From Catelliglobosispora koreensis DSM 44566 (GTDB lineage: Bacteria; Actinomycetota; Actinomycetes; Mycobacteriales; Micromonosporaceae): a stretch of 64,000 bases of DNA. The position numbers and the translations under genes were made by a program. Of the stretch, positions 51,682 through 58,875 are shown one piece after another. Position 1 is the first letter of the stretch. Every line of letters starts with the position of its first letter. The stretch is taken from positions 248,001-312,000 of the forward strand of contig NZ_KB903292.1 of the NCBI RefSeq assembly GCF_000379685.1, written 5' to 3'. Under the pieces are notes generated by a model. It ran no database searches and was not told where the DNA came from. It saw only the letters and a program-made list of their open reading frames with translations.

Positions 51682-51711
51682 AAGGCGGTTCCCGTTACAG
51701 GGAGCCGCCTT
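51682..51711. terminator. bidirectional terminator between convergent genes
   Basis: A 12-bp stem (AAGGCGGTTCCC / GGGAGCCGCCTT, one G-T pair) with a 6-base loop. The rightward transcript ends UUUAU; the leftward one has AAGGC then UUC. It starts 7 bases after the coiled-coil gene stop and its right arm overlaps the stop codon of the leftward GspS-like gene. Confidence 0.8.
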
Positions 51712-53044
51712 TATACGATCCGATGGTGTGCGGCACGAAGAAGGAACCGTTGCCCGTGATGAGGCCGCCTTCCCGGATCCCCAGTCCCGCGGGCTCACCG
51801 TCGATCATCCAGACGCCGAGCACTGGATGATTCCCGTCAAACTCAGGCAGTTCCTTTAGCTCTTGGTAAATGAACCCTTCGCTGCCATAGGCGCCCTCAT
51901 TGTGAGCGACCGTCTGTCCATTGCGGACAAGCGACACGTTGGCGCCCTCACGAGACCACAGAGGCTTGCGGGCAAAGGAAGTCATCGAGGCTGGCTTGTT
52001 GTGCTCGAAGTAGGCTGGCAGCAGCAAATCGTTGCCAGGAAACAACTCCCACAGAACCGCGAGCAGTGCCTTGCCCGACCACAGGGCCGTCCATGGCGGT
52101 TCGATCCAGACAGTGCCGCGTTTCGTGGGATCGGCCATATTTAGGAAGATGGGTTTGCCGCCTTCCTCGTGCCACACCCATTCCCACGGGTAGAGCATGA
52201 AGATGACGTCAATGCTCTTGCCGTTGAAGCGAATGCTGCCATCGGCCTGATCGACGCCAACGTCGGCAACCGTCATGAGTTCGGTGGGAAAGCCTGCCTG
52301 ATGCGCGGTTTCCATGAGATAACCCGCGGTCATTAGGTCCTCGCCCGAGGACTCCCGGCCGTCATAGGCGAAGTGAATGACCGGCTTTTCCGGCAGCCAA
52401 GGGCGGGCAGCCCGTAGCTCAGCCATATTGCGTTGCCAGGCCGCGATCAGCCGGTCGTGCATGCTCGACCACTGCCGCTCAGGGTGCCAGGTCTGCATCG
52501 TCTGCTCCATCCATTGCCACTGCACGACAGCGGCTTCCAGGAGGGAGGTGGGCGTCTGGGCGTTGTATTCCAGCAACTTCGGCGTCGTACCACGTCCGCC
52601 GTACCAAAGGTCGAAGCGGCCGTAGACGCTCGGGGAGTAGTCGGTCCCTTGTGCCGCATAGGCATGCGTGCCGAACAAATCCTTGTCGCCGTGCTGCCAA
52701 GCCTCGGGACTGTTGTCGTGCCAGGTCCGGATGATCTGCTCGTGCGCGTATTCCGGTATCCCGATGCGGGTCAGCAGACAGTCCTCCGGCGTGCAGACCT
52801 GCTCCAGATAGGACCGATGACGAACGTCGCGGCTGCTGCGCGGGCACTGCCGGGCCATGTGATCTCCGGCCACGACGCACATGCGATGCAGGGTTGTGGC
52901 GGCCTGTTCCAGCACGAGAATCTCGTCGAGTTCGAAGTCGTAGAACGGCCCTTCGCGCCAGTAGTCCTGTCCGTAGACGAGGCCCAGTGAGCGGTTGGTT
53001 TCCTCCCAGCTCGGGCGGATCATGCCATTGGCGATGCGGCGCAC
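51695..53044 (-). CDS. glutathionylspermidine synthase-like ATP-grasp ligase
   Basis: A 449-aa protein of the GspS C-terminal (ATP-grasp) family, like E. coli YgiC/YjfC. LLEYNAQTPTSLLEAAVVQW, DVIFMLYPWEWVWHEEGG, PAYFEHNKPA and KPLWSREGANV are the conserved ATP- and substrate-site segments. It lacks the amidase half of E. coli Gsp. It would join an amine or peptide to a carboxylate using ATP; since actinobacteria use mycothiol rather than glutathione, the true substrate is open. It overlaps in coupling (TGACGTG) with an upstream lipoprotein gene. Confidence 0.88.
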   Translation of the reverse strand: MRRIANGMIRPSWEETNRSLGLVYGQDYWREGPFYDFELDEILVLEQAATTLHRMCVVAGDHMARQCPRSSRDVRHRSYLEQVCTPEDCLLTRIGIPEYAHEQIIRTWHDNSPEAWQHGDKDLFGTHAYAAQGTDYSPSVYGRFDLWYGGRGTTPKLLEYNAQTPTSLLEAAVVQWQWMEQTMQTWHPERQWSSMHDRLIAAWQRNMAELRAARPWLPEKPVIHFAYDGRESSGEDLMTAGYLMETAHQAGFPTELMTVADVGVDQADGSIRFNGKSIDVIFMLYPWEWVWHEEGGKPIFLNMADPTKRGTVWIEPPWTALWSGKALLAVLWELFPGNDLLLPAYFEHNKPASMTSFARKPLWSREGANVSLVRNGQTVAHNEGAYGSEGFIYQELKELPEFDGNHPVLGVWMIDGEPAGLGIREGGLITGNGSFFVPHTIGSYKGGSL

Positions 53045-53045
53045 G

Positions 53046-53444
53046 TCAGGAGCCCGACGTGGTCCCGGTGCCTGAACCGCTCGTGCCGATCACACCAGAT
53101 TTCACCGTCGTCCCGTTGCTGATGCGCCCGGTGGTGGGCAGTCCCCAGGAGGCCCGTGCCGCGGTGTCCGAGGCGGCGAACCGGCTGCCCCCGGAGGGCA
53201 GGCGCGTGCCGGGCTTGAGGCCCTTGACGAAGAAGGGAGCGAAGGCGAGGAAGTAGAGGCCGCTGCGGTCGTTGTCACACTTGTCCTCGTCGACAATGAC
53301 CTCGTTAGCGTCAGTGCAGTAGAAGGTTGGCGGCGTATCGGAGTCGTCCCCGGACGACGAGCACGCGCTCGTTCCCGAGGCAGCCAGGCCCAGGAAGAAC
53401 GCACTCAACATCACCCGGCCTGTTCTGAGTCGACCCCCATGCAT
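53046..53444 (-). CDS. small lipoprotein paired with GspS-like ligase (YgiB-like role)
   Basis: A 132-aa protein. An ATG at 53444 with GAGAAGG upstream is preferred over an in-frame TTG at 53462. A basic N-terminus, hydrophobic run and lipobox (SGTSACSSSG) indicate a lipoprotein. The mature part has YCTDANEVIVDEDKCD, a Gly/Ser-rich C-terminus, and Phe-rich GLYFLAFAPFF. In E. coli the GspS-like YgiC is likewise encoded beside the lipoprotein YgiB; the same layout here suggests a conserved envelope partnership, although sequence similarity is slight. Confidence 0.65.
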   Translation of the reverse strand: MHGGRLRTGRVMLSAFFLGLAASGTSACSSSGDDSDTPPTFYCTDANEVIVDEDKCDNDRSGLYFLAFAPFFVKGLKPGTRLPSGGSRFAASDTAARASWGLPTTGRISNGTTVKSGVIGTSGSGTGTTSGS

Positions 53445-53463
53445 GCTGACCAGCCTTCTCAAC

Positions 53464-53513: not shown

Positions 53514-54173
53514 CTACCAGCCACTTCCCGGTCCGTCGAGGTCCGCGAACCCCGCTGACCTGGCCAGCTCGGCCGCTTCCTCCGGCTTACCGCCATGGTA
53601 GTGCAGAAATACACTATGCCCAGGAAATCCCTCGTTACCCCAAATGGGGTAGCCGTTCAAGGCGAGTTGCAGCCCGCCGCGATCATGTTCGCGCGGCCAG
53701 CACAGTCGCCAAGCCAGCTCTGCCTGCGCGTCTTCGACGACAGAGAGGAACAACTCCGCATTCGCGTTGCTGATGTCGAGGTAGGGCGTGGAGATGTCGG
53801 CCACGAAGTTGGGCAGGCTGCGGAACGCTGAGACTAGGGCGGGAGTGAGGTCAAGGTTGAGGTGGATCTTTCCGGAGTCGCGGTAGTACGTCGCCCAGTC
53901 GCGGTCGCGCCGAAGGTCGTTGACGGACGCGGCGATCGCTGGCCACTGCTCCAGCGGCACGTCGAAGCTGGCGCTCGCTCCGGGGATGGCCAGGAACCGA
54001 TCCAGATCAGTAGCCGTGGACAGGCCTTGAGCGTAGAAATCCAGGTGCGACGGGCAGCATCCCGTGCGGTGGCGCTCAAGCAGCGCTGAGGCCGCCGCCC
54101 ACGCGAGACCCACCTCGGGCGAGCTGAACACCCGCCACGTCACCGAATTGCCCACGGGGCGGCATTCTGCCAT
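53514..54173 (-). CDS. hypothetical protein, last gene of the MauE/Cys-rich operon
   Basis: A 219-aa protein without signal peptide. It contains no motif I recognise; it is Trp-rich (WRVFSSPEVGLAWAAA, AWRLCWPREHD, YPIWGNEGFPGHSVF) and acidic. It starts 3 bases after the MauE-like gene, so it is co-translated with it. Whether it belongs functionally to the system or is a passenger cannot be told. Confidence 0.6.
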   Translation of the reverse strand: MAECRPVGNSVTWRVFSSPEVGLAWAAASALLERHRTGCCPSHLDFYAQGLSTATDLDRFLAIPGASASFDVPLEQWPAIAASVNDLRRDRDWATYYRDSGKIHLNLDLTPALVSAFRSLPNFVADISTPYLDISNANAELFLSVVEDAQAELAWRLCWPREHDRGGLQLALNGYPIWGNEGFPGHSVFLHYHGGKPEEAAELARSAGFADLDGPGSGW

Positions 54174-54176
54174 CTT

Positions 54177-54899
54177 TCAGCGCGCGACGATCGCGAGTTT
54201 TATGCGGTCGGGTTCATCGGTCAGCCGGGGGACGGCGAAGACCGCGTCAGCGAGCTTGCCCTCGTGCCCGATGGTGTAACGAAGGATGCGCCACTCGCCC
54301 TCGTCCCAGCTTTCGACCACGTCTGAGCGCAGCAGCCCGCCGACGCGGCGGAAGGCCTCACTGCGCTGGAGTTGCTGCACGGTCGCCAGCAACGGGATGT
54401 CGCCCGTCGCTGTGTCCGCGAGCGGATGCGTGAGCTTAACCTTGAGACGGCGCAAGGGATACAGCCACCAGCGGTCCAGATCTGGTGACACCAAAGCGAA
54501 AACCAGCAGTTCGAGCGCTGACACGACCACAGCGGTCAGCAGCGGCACTGGCCCGGCAATCACGGCATGAACAGCCGCGGCGAGCAGGAGACCGGCCCTG
54601 GCGAAGTGGCGCACGCCAATGGGGGAAGGCTGCGCACTCGTGCAGCCGCACGATGATTCGGGACGGGTCACCTTGCGGTAGCCCAGAAACACAAGGAAGC
54701 CAAGCGCCAGCGGCACAGCCACGATGGGCACGATGAAGACAGCGAAAGCAGCCGCTAGCTCAACGGCGCCAACCGTTCGGTAGAACCAGACGGGCAGTCC
54801 AGATTGGACGGCGGCGACCGGGGCTGACCGGGCGAAGGCCTTGAAGACCCCCGCCCAAAGCAGCGCGGCGCCGACGAACAGTGTCGAGGCGGTGAGCAT
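54177..54899 (-). CDS. MauE/DoxX-like redox-associated membrane protein
   Basis: A 240-aa protein from ATG 54899, 1 base after the upstream stop. Residues 1-145 have four hydrophobic segments and fit the MauE/DoxX family: FKAFARSAPVAAVQSG, VGAVELAAAFAVFIVP, then a Cys84-Gly-Cys86 pair (SSCGCTS) at the start of the third segment. MauE in methylotrophs is needed to form the many disulfides of the methylamine dehydrogenase light chain. A 95-residue soluble C-terminal extension is unusual. Here the likely client is the 14-cysteine protein encoded two genes upstream. Confidence 0.8.
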   Translation of the reverse strand: MLTASTLFVGAALLWAGVFKAFARSAPVAAVQSGLPVWFYRTVGAVELAAAFAVFIVPIVAVPLALGFLVFLGYRKVTRPESSCGCTSAQPSPIGVRHFARAGLLLAAAVHAVIAGPVPLLTAVVVSALELLVFALVSPDLDRWWLYPLRRLKVKLTHPLADTATGDIPLLATVQQLQRSEAFRRVGGLLRSDVVESWDEGEWRILRYTIGHEGKLADAVFAVPRLTDEPDRIKLAIVAR

Positions 54900-54900
54900 G

Positions 54901-55488
54901 TCAGACCGCCGCGTAGACGGTCGCGATGTCGATTTCGTTGGTGTCTGGCCGCCAGGCACCGATCACCTTGACGTGCTTGCCGACCTTCAACAGCGACATG
55001 TCACTGACCGCTGGCGTCCCGTTGTAGACCGAGGCCGTGATGCCCGGCCGCACGTGACCGACAATCTTGCTGCCAAAGTGTTCCATGTGCAGCACGTTGT
55101 GGCTGATGGAACTGATGTGCACTTCGAGGTTCACGATGTTCACCCAGACGGATTCCGCGGCGAGCAAGCCATCCGGCATGCGCACACCACGGGCGTAAAG
55201 GCCATCGCCTAAGGCGACTTTGCTGAAGTCGACCGGGGTCAGCTTCCAGATGCTGGTTCCTTCGGTGACCTGAATCCGGTGAAACACACCGTCCGAACCC
55301 GACACGAAAAGCTTGCTGCCCTCAATGCTCTTGATGCGGCCTTCGGCGAAATTCGGGTCGGGTGCGCCGGGGGCGACATCGAAAGCCGGTGCCGCCAACG
55401 CATCTTCGGGAGCCAGTGACCCAAACGCAGTCGCGCCGGTGAGTGCGGCCGCGGTGAGCACCTGACGGCGGTCCAAAGTTGTTGTCAT
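54901..55488 (-). CDS. Tat-type exported beta-barrel protein (DUF5666-like)
   Basis: A 195-aa protein. The N-terminus LDRRQVLTAAALTG is a twin-arginine-type signal, ending near ALAAPA. The mature part is beta-rich with repeated OB/DUF5666-like strands (GRIKSIEGSKLFVSGSDG, LLKVGKHVKVIGAWRPD). It has no cysteines. It lies 10 bases after the Cys-rich protein gene and 1 base before the MauE-like gene. It could be the exported partner or carrier of the Cys-rich protein. Confidence 0.7.
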   Translation of the reverse strand: MTTTLDRRQVLTAAALTGATAFGSLAPEDALAAPAFDVAPGAPDPNFAEGRIKSIEGSKLFVSGSDGVFHRIQVTEGTSIWKLTPVDFSKVALGDGLYARGVRMPDGLLAAESVWVNIVNLEVHISSISHNVLHMEHFGSKIVGHVRPGITASVYNGTPAVSDMSLLKVGKHVKVIGAWRPDTNEIDIATVYAAV

Positions 55489-55498
55489 CTCAGCCGCC

Positions 55499-55909
55499 TT
55501 AGGGGAGGGTGACGCGCGCTGGGCGCAGTCCGGTGGAGAGGCTGGCGATCACGCTGTAGGCCGAGGGCGTCAGGTCGACGATGCGATGACGGCCGCAGTT
55601 GGCGCCACAGCAGCTTTGCTCGCCGCAGAAGCTCTTTGTCCGTGGCCCGCAGTCAGCTATCGAGGTGACGACCGAGGAGCCGTTGCAGAGGTTGGTGGTG
55701 CGGTGCTGGAATCCGCAGCCACGGCGCGACATCCCGCTGATGCCGCACAGATCCGGGCGCGTGATGTCGTAGCACGCCTGGGAGGCGTTGGGCCAGGCGT
55801 GCTGGCGCGACCCGGAGTTGCAAGTGCCGCATGCGCCGCGCCCGGTGGAACCACAAGGGCCCCAGGCACTTCCGCAGCAGAACCATGACATTTCACCGAC
55901 AATGGTCAT
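55499..55909 (-). CDS. 14-cysteine RlpA/expansin-like double-psi beta-barrel protein
   Basis: A 136-aa protein with 14 cysteines in its first 105 residues (FCCGSAWGPCG, GACGTC, QACY, DLCG, RGCG, NLCN, ADCG, SFCG, SCCGANC). The C-terminal two thirds follow the RlpA/DPBB pattern: VVTSIADCGP (cf. the conserved V-x-D-x-GP), then RIVDLTPSAYSVIASL (cf. IDLS...A) and a final valine strand. Such folds occur in expansins, barwins and lytic transglycosylases that act on walls. There is no signal peptide with either start (M1 or M7). The AT-rich upstream gap may hold its promoter. Confidence 0.75.
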   Translation of the reverse strand: MTIVGEMSWFCCGSAWGPCGSTGRGACGTCNSGSRQHAWPNASQACYDITRPDLCGISGMSRRGCGFQHRTTNLCNGSSVVTSIADCGPRTKSFCGEQSCCGANCGRHRIVDLTPSAYSVIASLSTGLRPARVTLP

Positions 55910-55967
55910 GCCTTCAATCGTCAGACATAAAAACTAGTTACGTCAATATATCGATTGAAGAAAATTT
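55910..55967 (-). promoter_or_regulatory. AT-rich intergenic promoter region of the Cys-rich/MauE operon
   Basis: A 58-base gap, markedly AT-rich against its surroundings. Reading leftward it contains TATATTGACG followed by TAACTAGTTTTTATG. TTGACG could be a -35, but the matching -10 is poor. The HelR gene upstream ends at 55968, so this is the only space for a separate promoter of the four-gene operon. Confidence 0.35.
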
Positions 55968-58172
55968 TCACCGGAGCAAGGTCAACCGTTGGGTAGCTCG
56001 CGTAAGTGCGACGTAGAGGTCGTTTCGCCCTCGTGGCGACTCGGATTTAATGGCATCAGGGTCAACCACGATGACGGAATCGAACTCCAGACCTTTGGCC
56101 TCGCGGACCGTCAAAATGGCGACCTGGCTGTCCAGGTCAGCCGAGCGCTCGGCCGCTTTCGCTTGCGGCACAATCACTCCGATCTTCCCGCCGAGTGCGG
56201 CCTCTTCCGCGATGACGTCCTGAAGCTTTCTTCCAAAGATCTCTCTTGGGGGTACTCCCGAAGCCCGCACCGAATCTGGAGGACGAAGCGACGGATCGAT
56301 CTCGGCCAGCACCTCGGCGGCGAGCTCCATGATTTCAGCGGGAGTGCGGTAGTTGACGGTCAGTTCGGCTAGGCGCCAGCGTTGCGCGACGAACGGCTCG
56401 AACACCTCGCCCCAGCTGCGGGCTCCGCCCAGGTCACCGGTCTGGGCCACGTCACCGGCGACAGTCATCGACCGGCTCGGTGTGCGGCGCATGAGCAAAC
56501 GCCACGCCATCGGCGAGAGTTCTTGTGCCTCATCGATAATCACGTGCCCGAAGGTCCACTTGCGATCCGTGGCGGCCCGTTGGGAGGCGGTCAGGTCTTC
56601 GGTGACGACCTGACGTTCGGCTAGCTCACTGGCGCTCAGAATGTCAGTGGCCACAAGGACTTCGGCCTCTTCGCCGACCTCGACGTCGGTGGAGACGGAC
56701 CCGGCGGAAATGTCGAGCACACCCTCGGCGTAAGCGATCTGGCGCCGTAGCCGGGCCGTCAGGGCACGGGCCTCTTCCTCGTCCTCGCCCAGCAGCTCGG
56801 CCGCCTCGTCGAGCAGGGGGACGTCTGCGGGCGACCAGTCGCCTGGTTCCCGCCGCAGTGCCTCGATGTCGGTCGTGGCGTAGAACTCCGCCAGGAAGCG
56901 TTGTGGCGTGAGCTTGGGCCACAGCTCATCCATCGCGGCGGCCAGCTCGGTGTCCTCGCGAAGCTCGCGGCGGATTTCCGCGACATCGTTGTCATCGAGC
57001 AGGAGCGTCCCTTCGCCCGGGGCGTCATCACCGCCGAGCGCTTCTCCGGCGAACGGGTCAAACCCTTGCAGCTCAGCGATTTGCCTCGCCAAGGTCGCGA
57101 TGATTTCTTCGGTGAAGAACGGCCGGGCGAGGTTGTGTGGCTTTCCGCTCTGGCGGGCGATGCCGATCGCGCGGCCGATCGTCTCGCGGTCGATGGCGAC
57201 CTTCTCGCGCTGATAGCCCAGGCCCTCGTGAGTGTCAGACAACAGAACCTCGACGTCGGCCGGGGGCACCTGCTGACGGGCCGCGATCGCCTCGCGCAGG
57301 ATGGCCAGCATTTCCAGGCTGCCCTTGAACCGGGCCAGCTCGGCGGATTCTTCGCGCCGCGCCCGCAAACCAGGAAAGAGGTCGCCGAGGGTGCACAGCA
57401 GCACGCTGGTTTCCCCTAGCCCCGGCAGCACCTGCGAGATGTAACGCAGGAACGTCTCGTTTGGACCGAGGATCAGCACCCCTTGGCGCGTCAGCGACTC
57501 ACGGTGGGTGTAGAGCAGATAGGCCGCGCGGTGCAACGCCACCGCGGTCTTTCCGGTGCCCGGACCGCCCTGCACCACGAGCACTCCACTGAGCGGAGCG
57601 CGAATGATGCGGTCCTGCTCGGCCTGGATGGTCTCGACGATGTCCTTCATATGGCCCGTGCGGTTGGCGTTCAGCGCGCCCAGAAGGGCCGCCTCGCCGA
57701 CCAGACCCTGATCACTGGCGTCCTGAACCGCGCTCAGGTCAAGGATCTCCTCATCGACGCCCGTGACTTCGCGCAGTCTCGTGCGGATGTGGCGGCGCCG
57801 CCGGACCGGGCCGGGTGCCGCCGCGGTGGCGAGATAAAAAGGCCTGGCCGCTGGGGCTCGCCAGTCGATGAGCAGGGGCTCATAGTCGTCGTCGAACAGC
57901 CCGATCCGGCCGATGTGCAGGCGGTCGTCGCCCGAGGCGTCGAAGTCGATGCGGCCAAAGCACAACCCGTGCTCGGCGGCGTCCCACTGGCGGATTTGCT
58001 GGCGCAGCTGGCTGACCGCGGAGTCGCGCTCAGAACGGGCCTGATGGGTCCCTCCGGGACCACCTTGCATGGTCTCGTCCAGCCGTTGCGCCGCTTGATC
58101 CCGTAACGTGTCCAGCCGTTCATAGAGCCCAGAAATGATCTCTTGTTCCTGGCTGATGTTGTCGCTCGGCAA
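55968..58172 (-). CDS. helD: HelD/HelR-type RNA polymerase-recycling ATPase
   Basis: About 734 aa from a TTG at 58172 with GGGGTGGG just upstream; the frame is open further but that part overlaps the divergent gene. The N-terminal coiled arm (EQEIISGLYERLDTLRDQAA) is the HelD secondary-channel element. UvrD-like motifs follow: Walker A GGPGTGKTA, Walker B VIIDEAQELSP, GDVAQTGD, NYRTP and YVALTRATQ. HelD frees stalled RNA polymerase, and actinobacterial HelR can displace rifamycins. It is the gene upstream of the Cys-rich operon. Confidence 0.9.
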   Translation of the reverse strand: MPSDNISQEQEIISGLYERLDTLRDQAAQRLDETMQGGPGGTHQARSERDSAVSQLRQQIRQWDAAEHGLCFGRIDFDASGDDRLHIGRIGLFDDDYEPLLIDWRAPAARPFYLATAAAPGPVRRRRHIRTRLREVTGVDEEILDLSAVQDASDQGLVGEAALLGALNANRTGHMKDIVETIQAEQDRIIRAPLSGVLVVQGGPGTGKTAVALHRAAYLLYTHRESLTRQGVLILGPNETFLRYISQVLPGLGETSVLLCTLGDLFPGLRARREESAELARFKGSLEMLAILREAIAARQQVPPADVEVLLSDTHEGLGYQREKVAIDRETIGRAIGIARQSGKPHNLARPFFTEEIIATLARQIAELQGFDPFAGEALGGDDAPGEGTLLLDDNDVAEIRRELREDTELAAAMDELWPKLTPQRFLAEFYATTDIEALRREPGDWSPADVPLLDEAAELLGEDEEEARALTARLRRQIAYAEGVLDISAGSVSTDVEVGEEAEVLVATDILSASELAERQVVTEDLTASQRAATDRKWTFGHVIIDEAQELSPMAWRLLMRRTPSRSMTVAGDVAQTGDLGGARSWGEVFEPFVAQRWRLAELTVNYRTPAEIMELAAEVLAEIDPSLRPPDSVRASGVPPREIFGRKLQDVIAEEAALGGKIGVIVPQAKAAERSADLDSQVAILTVREAKGLEFDSVIVVDPDAIKSESPRGRNDLYVALTRATQRLTLLR

Positions 58173-58236
58173 AGCCCACCCCAGTTCGCGCCGCCCAACC
58201 CGCAAGCTGACCAGTTTAGCCGCTACCGTGGCGGCC

Positions 58237-58875
58237 ATGACGCCGATCAGAGATGCGTACCTGACCGCAGCGCAGGCAGCGGTGAACCTGATCAACAATG
58301 ATGCGGTGGCTTCGGCCTGGGATAAGCCCAGTGCGCTCGAAGGATTCACGGTGGGCGGTCTCGCGTCCCATCTTGGAGGGCAGCTGTTCTCGGTGCAGTT
58401 CGCGCTGACGCGGGAACAGCCGGAGACTGAGGCGATTCCGATCACAGGACACTACGAGCGCGCGGCCTGGGTCGGTGCTGACCTTGACGCCGAAGTGAAC
58501 GTGAAGATCCGCAAGAACGGTGAGGACCGGGCTCACGAAGGCCCGGAGCAGCTGCGTTCCGACATGGCCCAAGCCTTGGCGACGGTAACGGAGCTGTTGC
58601 CACAGCAGCCCGTGGAGCGGACCGCACCCGTGCCAGCCGGCCCTTGGGCGCTGACCCTCGATGACTTTTTGATCACACGAATGATGGAGATCGCTGTCCA
58701 CTCTGACGATCTCGCGTGCAGTGTGCGGCTGGAGACGCCGGATCTGCCGTCCAATGTGCTCGATCCGGTGCTGTCGTTGCTAACCAAGCTGTCGGTGGCG
58801 CGCCACGGGCAAGCGGCAGTGTTGCGCGCCCTGACCAGGGCCGAACGCGCACCGTCAACCATTACCGCTTTTTAG
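58237..58875 (+). CDS. maleylpyruvate isomerase/DinB-fold mycothiol-type protein
   Basis: A 212-aa protein of the maleylpyruvate isomerase N-terminal (MDMPI/DinB) superfamily. The early VNLINNDAVASAWDKPSALE, VGGLASHLGGQL (metal His) and RMMEIAVHSDDLACSV (HxxD) fit. Such proteins bind a metal and often use mycothiol. TACCGT lies 7 bases before the ATG, a leaderless promoter. Its stop interlocks with the convergent 64-aa gene (TTAG at 58872-58875). Confidence 0.82.
   Translation: MTPIRDAYLTAAQAAVNLINNDAVASAWDKPSALEGFTVGGLASHLGGQLFSVQFALTREQPETEAIPITGHYERAAWVGADLDAEVNVKIRKNGEDRAHEGPEQLRSDMAQALATVTELLPQQPVERTAPVPAGPWALTLDDFLITRMMEIAVHSDDLACSVRLETPDLPSNVLDPVLSLLTKLSVARHGQAAVLRALTRAERAPSTITAF

Follow-up and report, generated by a model that had tools for sequence, protein, structure and literature searches.

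A conserved three-gene cassette of actinobacteria and its proposed role in the maturation and Tat hitchhiker export of a cysteine-rich double-psi beta-barrel protein

The cassette and its proposed function

Three adjacent genes of Catelliglobosispora koreensis, designated here P1, P2 and P3, form a real and widely conserved cassette, which encodes a protein with 14 cysteines (P1), a protein with a Tat signal (P2), and a membrane protein of the MauE family (P3). On balance, this cassette is best read as a unit of maturation and Tat hitchhiker export, in which P1 would be the passenger, P2 the carrier, and P3 a thiol oxidoreductase or docking factor. The signal-less P1 would fold in the cytosol and then bind P2, whose Tat signal would take the pair out through TatC, while P3 would act as a dedicated thiol oxidoreductase, or as a membrane docking factor, that enables the formation of the P1 disulfides. 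Given that the Tat system requires folded cargo, the oxidation of P1 would most likely occur before or during transport. Both the oxidase role of P3 and the Tat dependence of P1 export are inferred.

Locus and gene order

The window, that is, the whole stretch of 64,000 nucleotides that was analysed, has a G+C content of approximately 65% and belongs to a genome of 7.69 Mb. The four leftward open reading frames that a sequence-only reading of this DNA had grouped together are all present, with the expected gaps of 10, 1 and 3 bases (P1/P2, P2/P3 and P3/P4, respectively; Table 1). The start of P3 is taken as the ATG at 54899, and the longer GTG frame of the program-made list overlaps P2. A HelD/HelR-type RNA polymerase recycling ATPase is encoded upstream (window 55968-58445), and its stop codon abuts the putative promoter region of P1. 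Downstream of the cassette, window 51695-53462 encodes a preATP-grasp protein similar to glutathionylspermidine synthase, which follows a small lipoprotein-like frame that contains Cys.

Table 1. Features of the cassette and of two related loci (positions refer to the window, except where a locus is named).
Feature	Position	Strand	Description
P1, proposed Tat passenger	55499..55909	(-)	136 aa, 14 Cys, signal-less, double-psi beta-barrel fold (predicted)
P2, proposed Tat carrier of P1	54901..55488	(-)	195 aa, Tat signal, DUF5666-like tandem OB-type domains
P2 Tat signal peptide	55393..55488	(-)	RR = residues 7-8, A-L-A = residues 30-32; cleavage site inferred
P3, MauE-family membrane protein	54177..54899	(-)	240 aa, ~5 hydrophobic segments, soluble C-terminal domain of ~100 aa
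P3 Cys-Gly-Cys codons	54642..54650	(-)	residues 84-86; present in 79/79 homologues
P4	53514..54173	(-)	219 aa; outside the conserved unit
Putative promoter region (tentative)	55941..55969	(-)	GAAAATTTTC palindrome (55969-55960), then TTGACG (55946-55941)
Tat-signal alpha/beta-hydrolase-like protein	L052:3462-4733	(-)	~409 aa, directly upstream of P3 orthologue
Tat-signal alpha/beta-hydrolase-like protein	L051:1093-2346	(+)	~409 aa, directly upstream of P3 orthologue

Conservation of the unit

The genes P1 and P3 were searched for independently in 200 genomes of the order, and each genome with a strong P1 match has P3 alongside, with P2 in between. A scan of the P1 alignment against 84,980 species genomes recovered 174 relatives, and the gene order was read in the best 80. 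The order P1-P2-P3 is constant, and on a single strand, in 79 of these 80 named loci, the 80th being cut at a contig end; a recurrence of this kind indicates that the arrangement is not due to chance. The spacing between P1 and P2 is 1-28 bp in all the pairs. The trio occurs in many actinobacteria of the soil and is found in the Micromonosporaceae, in Nonomuraea, Streptosporangium and Sphaerisporangium (Streptosporangiaceae), and in Kribbella, Actinoallomurus, Stackebrandtia and Phytomonospora, and the nearest named relative of the locus is that of Rhizocola hellebori (Micromonosporaceae), with a P1 identity of 93%.

The conserved set proposed initially had four members, and it stands for these three genes and fails for the last of them. 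When 199 other genomes were considered, P4 was present in two; one of them, G139, also carries the cassette, but with P4 at a distance of 3.4 Mb, so that P4 is ruled out as part of the unit. No further conserved neighbour was recovered among 40 loci of 22 genera, in which the remaining clusters were either frames antisense to the cassette or families of common proteins. In two loci of one genus (L048 and L049), the whole cassette is repeated in tandem, in two or three copies, one of which, in L049, is apparently frame-shifted.

Upstream of P1 in several genera, a TTGAC element is accompanied by a nearby GAAA-N2-TTTC palindrome, similar to the region of the window listed in Table 1. Exact occurrences number 11 in the 79 loci, against 0.2 in shuffled sequences, a comparison that is uncorrected for the relatedness of the loci. 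This is a possible site of a shared regulator.

P1, a signal-less protein with 14 cysteines

All 14 cysteines of P1 (residues 11, 12, 19, 27, 30, 46, 55, 65, 75, 87, 95, 100, 101 and 105) are invariant in an alignment of 55 sequences, together with W9, F10, D86 and R109, and the cysteines would presumably pair in seven disulfides. The RlpA/expansin-like fold suspected from the sequence was recovered by structure prediction, with the AlphaFold model (pLDDT 89.1, pTM 0.85) forming a confident double-psi beta-barrel (DPBB). The model matches PA4485 with a VIA Z of 13.8 (rmsd 1.6, 93 aligned), followed by kiwellin (11.0), loosenin (10.9) and bacterial expansin (10.7), and it also resembles the Streptomyces papain inhibitor. 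In addition to the predicted fold, P1 shares Asp-x-Gly-Pro and Arg..Asp-Leu-Thr motifs with loosenin, kiwellin, expansin domain 1, the papain inhibitor and RlpA, but differs from them in its 14 cysteines, its Cys-rich N-terminal segment, and its lack of an export signal of its own.

At the level of the sequence, the Pfam DPBB_1 score of the window P1 is weak (14.1 bits; cut-off 28.8), the model being matched by 54 of the 55 family members at E<=0.1, one of them above the cut-off (31.7 bits), and no significant match of P1 to solved structures was found by sequence. Of a possible RlpA-type catalytic set, only an invariant Asp (D86, within a DCGP motif) is seen in P1. A carbohydrate-binding or inhibitory role of P1-P2 outside the cell appears plausible.

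The absence of a signal peptide, noted at the outset for this single protein, extends to all its relatives. In the 79 homologues, the WFCC motif is preceded by just 8-23 residues, none of them signal-peptide-like, and the starts have a good ribosome-binding site ahead.

P2 and the predicted P1:P2 complex

The identification of P2 as a protein with a Tat signal is supported by its twin-arginine motif, which is invariant in a 14-row alignment. When a further 80 homologues were examined, 78 had the motif, and the other two resemble artefacts of start choice or frame. The TIGR01409 score of P2 is 15.1 bits (curated cut-off 16.7), and this model is matched by 10 of the 14 homologues at E<=1; on its own, the Tat signal of P2 scores under both curated cut-offs. 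The window P2 has no cysteine, and none is conserved among its homologues.

Residues 49-114 of P2 match DUF5666 (PF18914) weakly, at 18.3 bits (gathering cut-off 27), and one relative (L047) exceeds the cut-off, with 27.7 bits. The predicted structure resembles OB folds, and the OB domains are weakly similar to the copper protein CusF. P2 differs from the DUF5666 proteins in that its OB-type domains are arranged in tandem and preceded by a Tat signal, and in that it is predicted to be bound to P1. The lariocidin lasso-peptide core model ('lario_core') is matched by 8 of the 14 P2 homologues, in the GDGLYARG region, and this match was set aside as homology, since it spans only ~10 residues and is probably due to chance.

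The complex was modelled by means of a stand-in, in which the stop of P1 is read through; in several relatives, the gap between P1 and P2 is a multiple of three, and the outcome is a single chain of P1, linker, Tat signal and P2. This chain is a modelling device, and no read-through in nature is claimed. In Micromonospora, one fused chain of this type (341 aa) was predicted with a pTM of 0.84, and its disorder is limited to residues 139-171, that is, the linker and the Tat signal. According to the pTM formula, the unrelated placement of two well-folded domains of the same sizes would be expected to give a pTM of ~0.45, while a value of at least 0.8 requires inter-domain errors of ~3 Å or less. 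A tight complex of P1 and P2 is thus predicted, and this model lends support to the initial suggestion that the folded P1 is exported piggyback on its neighbour, with hitchhiking on P2 via Tat being the most likely route by which P1 leaves the cell.

P3, a MauE-family membrane protein

The assignment of P3 as MauE-like also held, with a Pfam MauE (PF07291) score of 32.4 bits, above the cut-off of 27, and 15 of 16 homologues matching the model. All 79 homologues have the Cys-Gly-Cys motif, which lies in the loop that leads into hydrophobic segment 4, and the soluble C-terminal domain is conserved, with no clear Pfam match. No thioredoxin-like partner of the MauD or DsbA type is encoded in the cassette.

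The basic residues of P3 are found in three places, namely the loop that follows segment 1, the Cys-Gly-Cys loop, and the strongly basic stretch beyond segment 5, with almost none in the other loops. The Cys-Gly-Cys loop itself is net positive, with a mean of 4.4 K/R against 1.4 D/E. By the positive-inside rule, this pattern weakly suggests a cytosolic Cys-Gly-Cys, whereas the sequence-only reading had assumed the usual extracytoplasmic oxidation. The MauE-like proteins nevertheless show two opposite charge patterns, and a topology from the charges alone was therefore set aside. One protein, L134, combines a MauE-like membrane domain and a C-terminal DsbA-like domain, and the DsbA fusion implies that the Cys-Gly-Cys loop of its group is outside; in this group, the loop is neutral or acidic (2-4 K/R against 3-5 D/E). 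A second MauE-like group in related genomes has a basic loop like that of P3, and since this group includes a protein with a thioredoxin-like tail (L149), the charges do not fix the orientation of P3.

P3 is probably a dedicated thiol oxidase for P1. The idea of a MauE-like protein dedicated to the DPBB protein agrees with the co-occurrence of the two in the 79 loci described above, but does not hold strictly, because two genomes of a single genus (L051 and L052) have a P3 orthologue directly behind a Tat-signal alpha/beta-hydrolase-like protein, with neither P1 nor P2 nearby (Table 1). This suggests that the shared element of the P3 loci is Tat cargo in general, not the DPBB protein in particular, and P3 may have a wider role for such cargo. 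The host genome encodes one TatC, together with a VKOR and other MauE/DoxX-like genes. Given the VKOR, P3 need not be the sole oxidant, and with these other genes present, it may even be dispensable for oxidation.

Alternative readings

The side of the membrane on which P3 would act separates two versions of the export model. In one, P3 would be an inside-facing disulfide catalyst that oxidises P1 in the cytosol, so that the folded P1:P2 pair can pass the quality control of Tat, and this specific version is rather doubtful. In the other, which is possible without being the reading we would expect, P1 and P2 are exported as proposed and P3 acts at the outer face, where it would oxidise or dock the Tat cargo after its export, with the Cys-Gly-Cys on the extracytoplasmic side. 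The outside loop deduced from the DsbA fusion of L134 and the orthologues behind the Tat-signal hydrolase are consistent with action at the outer face, whereas the net positive Cys-Gly-Cys loop, unlike that of the DsbA-fused type, the strongly basic segment past the last hydrophobic stretch, and the near absence of K/R from the loops of the opposite side all argue against it.

The cytosol of actinobacteria is reducing, which, together with the absence of a signal peptide from every P1 and the weak similarity of the P2 OB domains to CusF, would fit a P1 that is cytosolic or otherwise released and binds metal through its cysteines, with P2 and P3 as envelope proteins that act separately in a metal or redox response. 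The predicted P1:P2 complex, the mostly secreted nature of the DPBB relatives that resemble P1, and the lack of conserved cysteines in P2 run counter to this reading and make it unlikely. It is more improbable still that P1 is the precursor of a RiPP-like modified peptide and P3 its modifying enzyme, a relationship that has been proposed for MauE homologues beside Cys-rich precursors of Streptomyces; mauE genes are reported to be paired with Cys-rich precursors in three candidate families (PMC7794033), but P1 is a full-length folded DPBB protein, strongly conserved along its whole length and without a leader, and no other modifying enzyme is found nearby in 40 loci.

Relationship to known systems

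The substrates of the Tat system are folded proteins, and a protein that lacks a signal can be carried along by a partner that has one, as in HybO/HybC and PaoA/PaoBC, with a similar pairing in MelC1, a related helper of tyrosinase (PMC4273604). Like these systems (HybO/HybC and PaoA/PaoBC of Escherichia coli, MelC1/MelC2 of Streptomyces), the cassette encodes a signal-less protein beside one with a Tat signal, and the two are predicted to form a complex. In contrast with them, the proposed passenger is not a cofactor enzyme but a small DPBB protein rich in Cys, and the set includes a MauE-type protein. P3 resembles the MauE of methylamine dehydrogenase maturation (PF07291) in being a membrane protein with a CxC motif and a Cys-rich partner, but differs from the mau system in its additional C-terminal soluble domain; no mauA, mauB or mauD was found near P3 in 40 loci or among the Pfam matches of the window neighbours.

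In Streptomyces, MauE homologues are reported to adjoin precursors with eight or more cysteines in three candidate families, and apart from this remark (PMC7794033), no description of the trio was found in the open-access literature on MauE and DUF5666. A search for precedents of inverted VKOR/DsbB proteins returned nothing usable. The cassette most likely unites hitchhiker export through Tat and a redox protein of the MauE type, a combination that is undescribed in the literature searched.

Implications

If the proposed reading is correct, the cassette would represent a compact genetic module by which Tat exports a protein that is already folded and dense in disulfides, and the MauE proteins would gain a defined client outside methylamine metabolism. 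It would then become testable whether bacteria can form the disulfides of Tat cargo on the cytosolic side, and the module may be of use for the secretion of disulfide-rich proteins.
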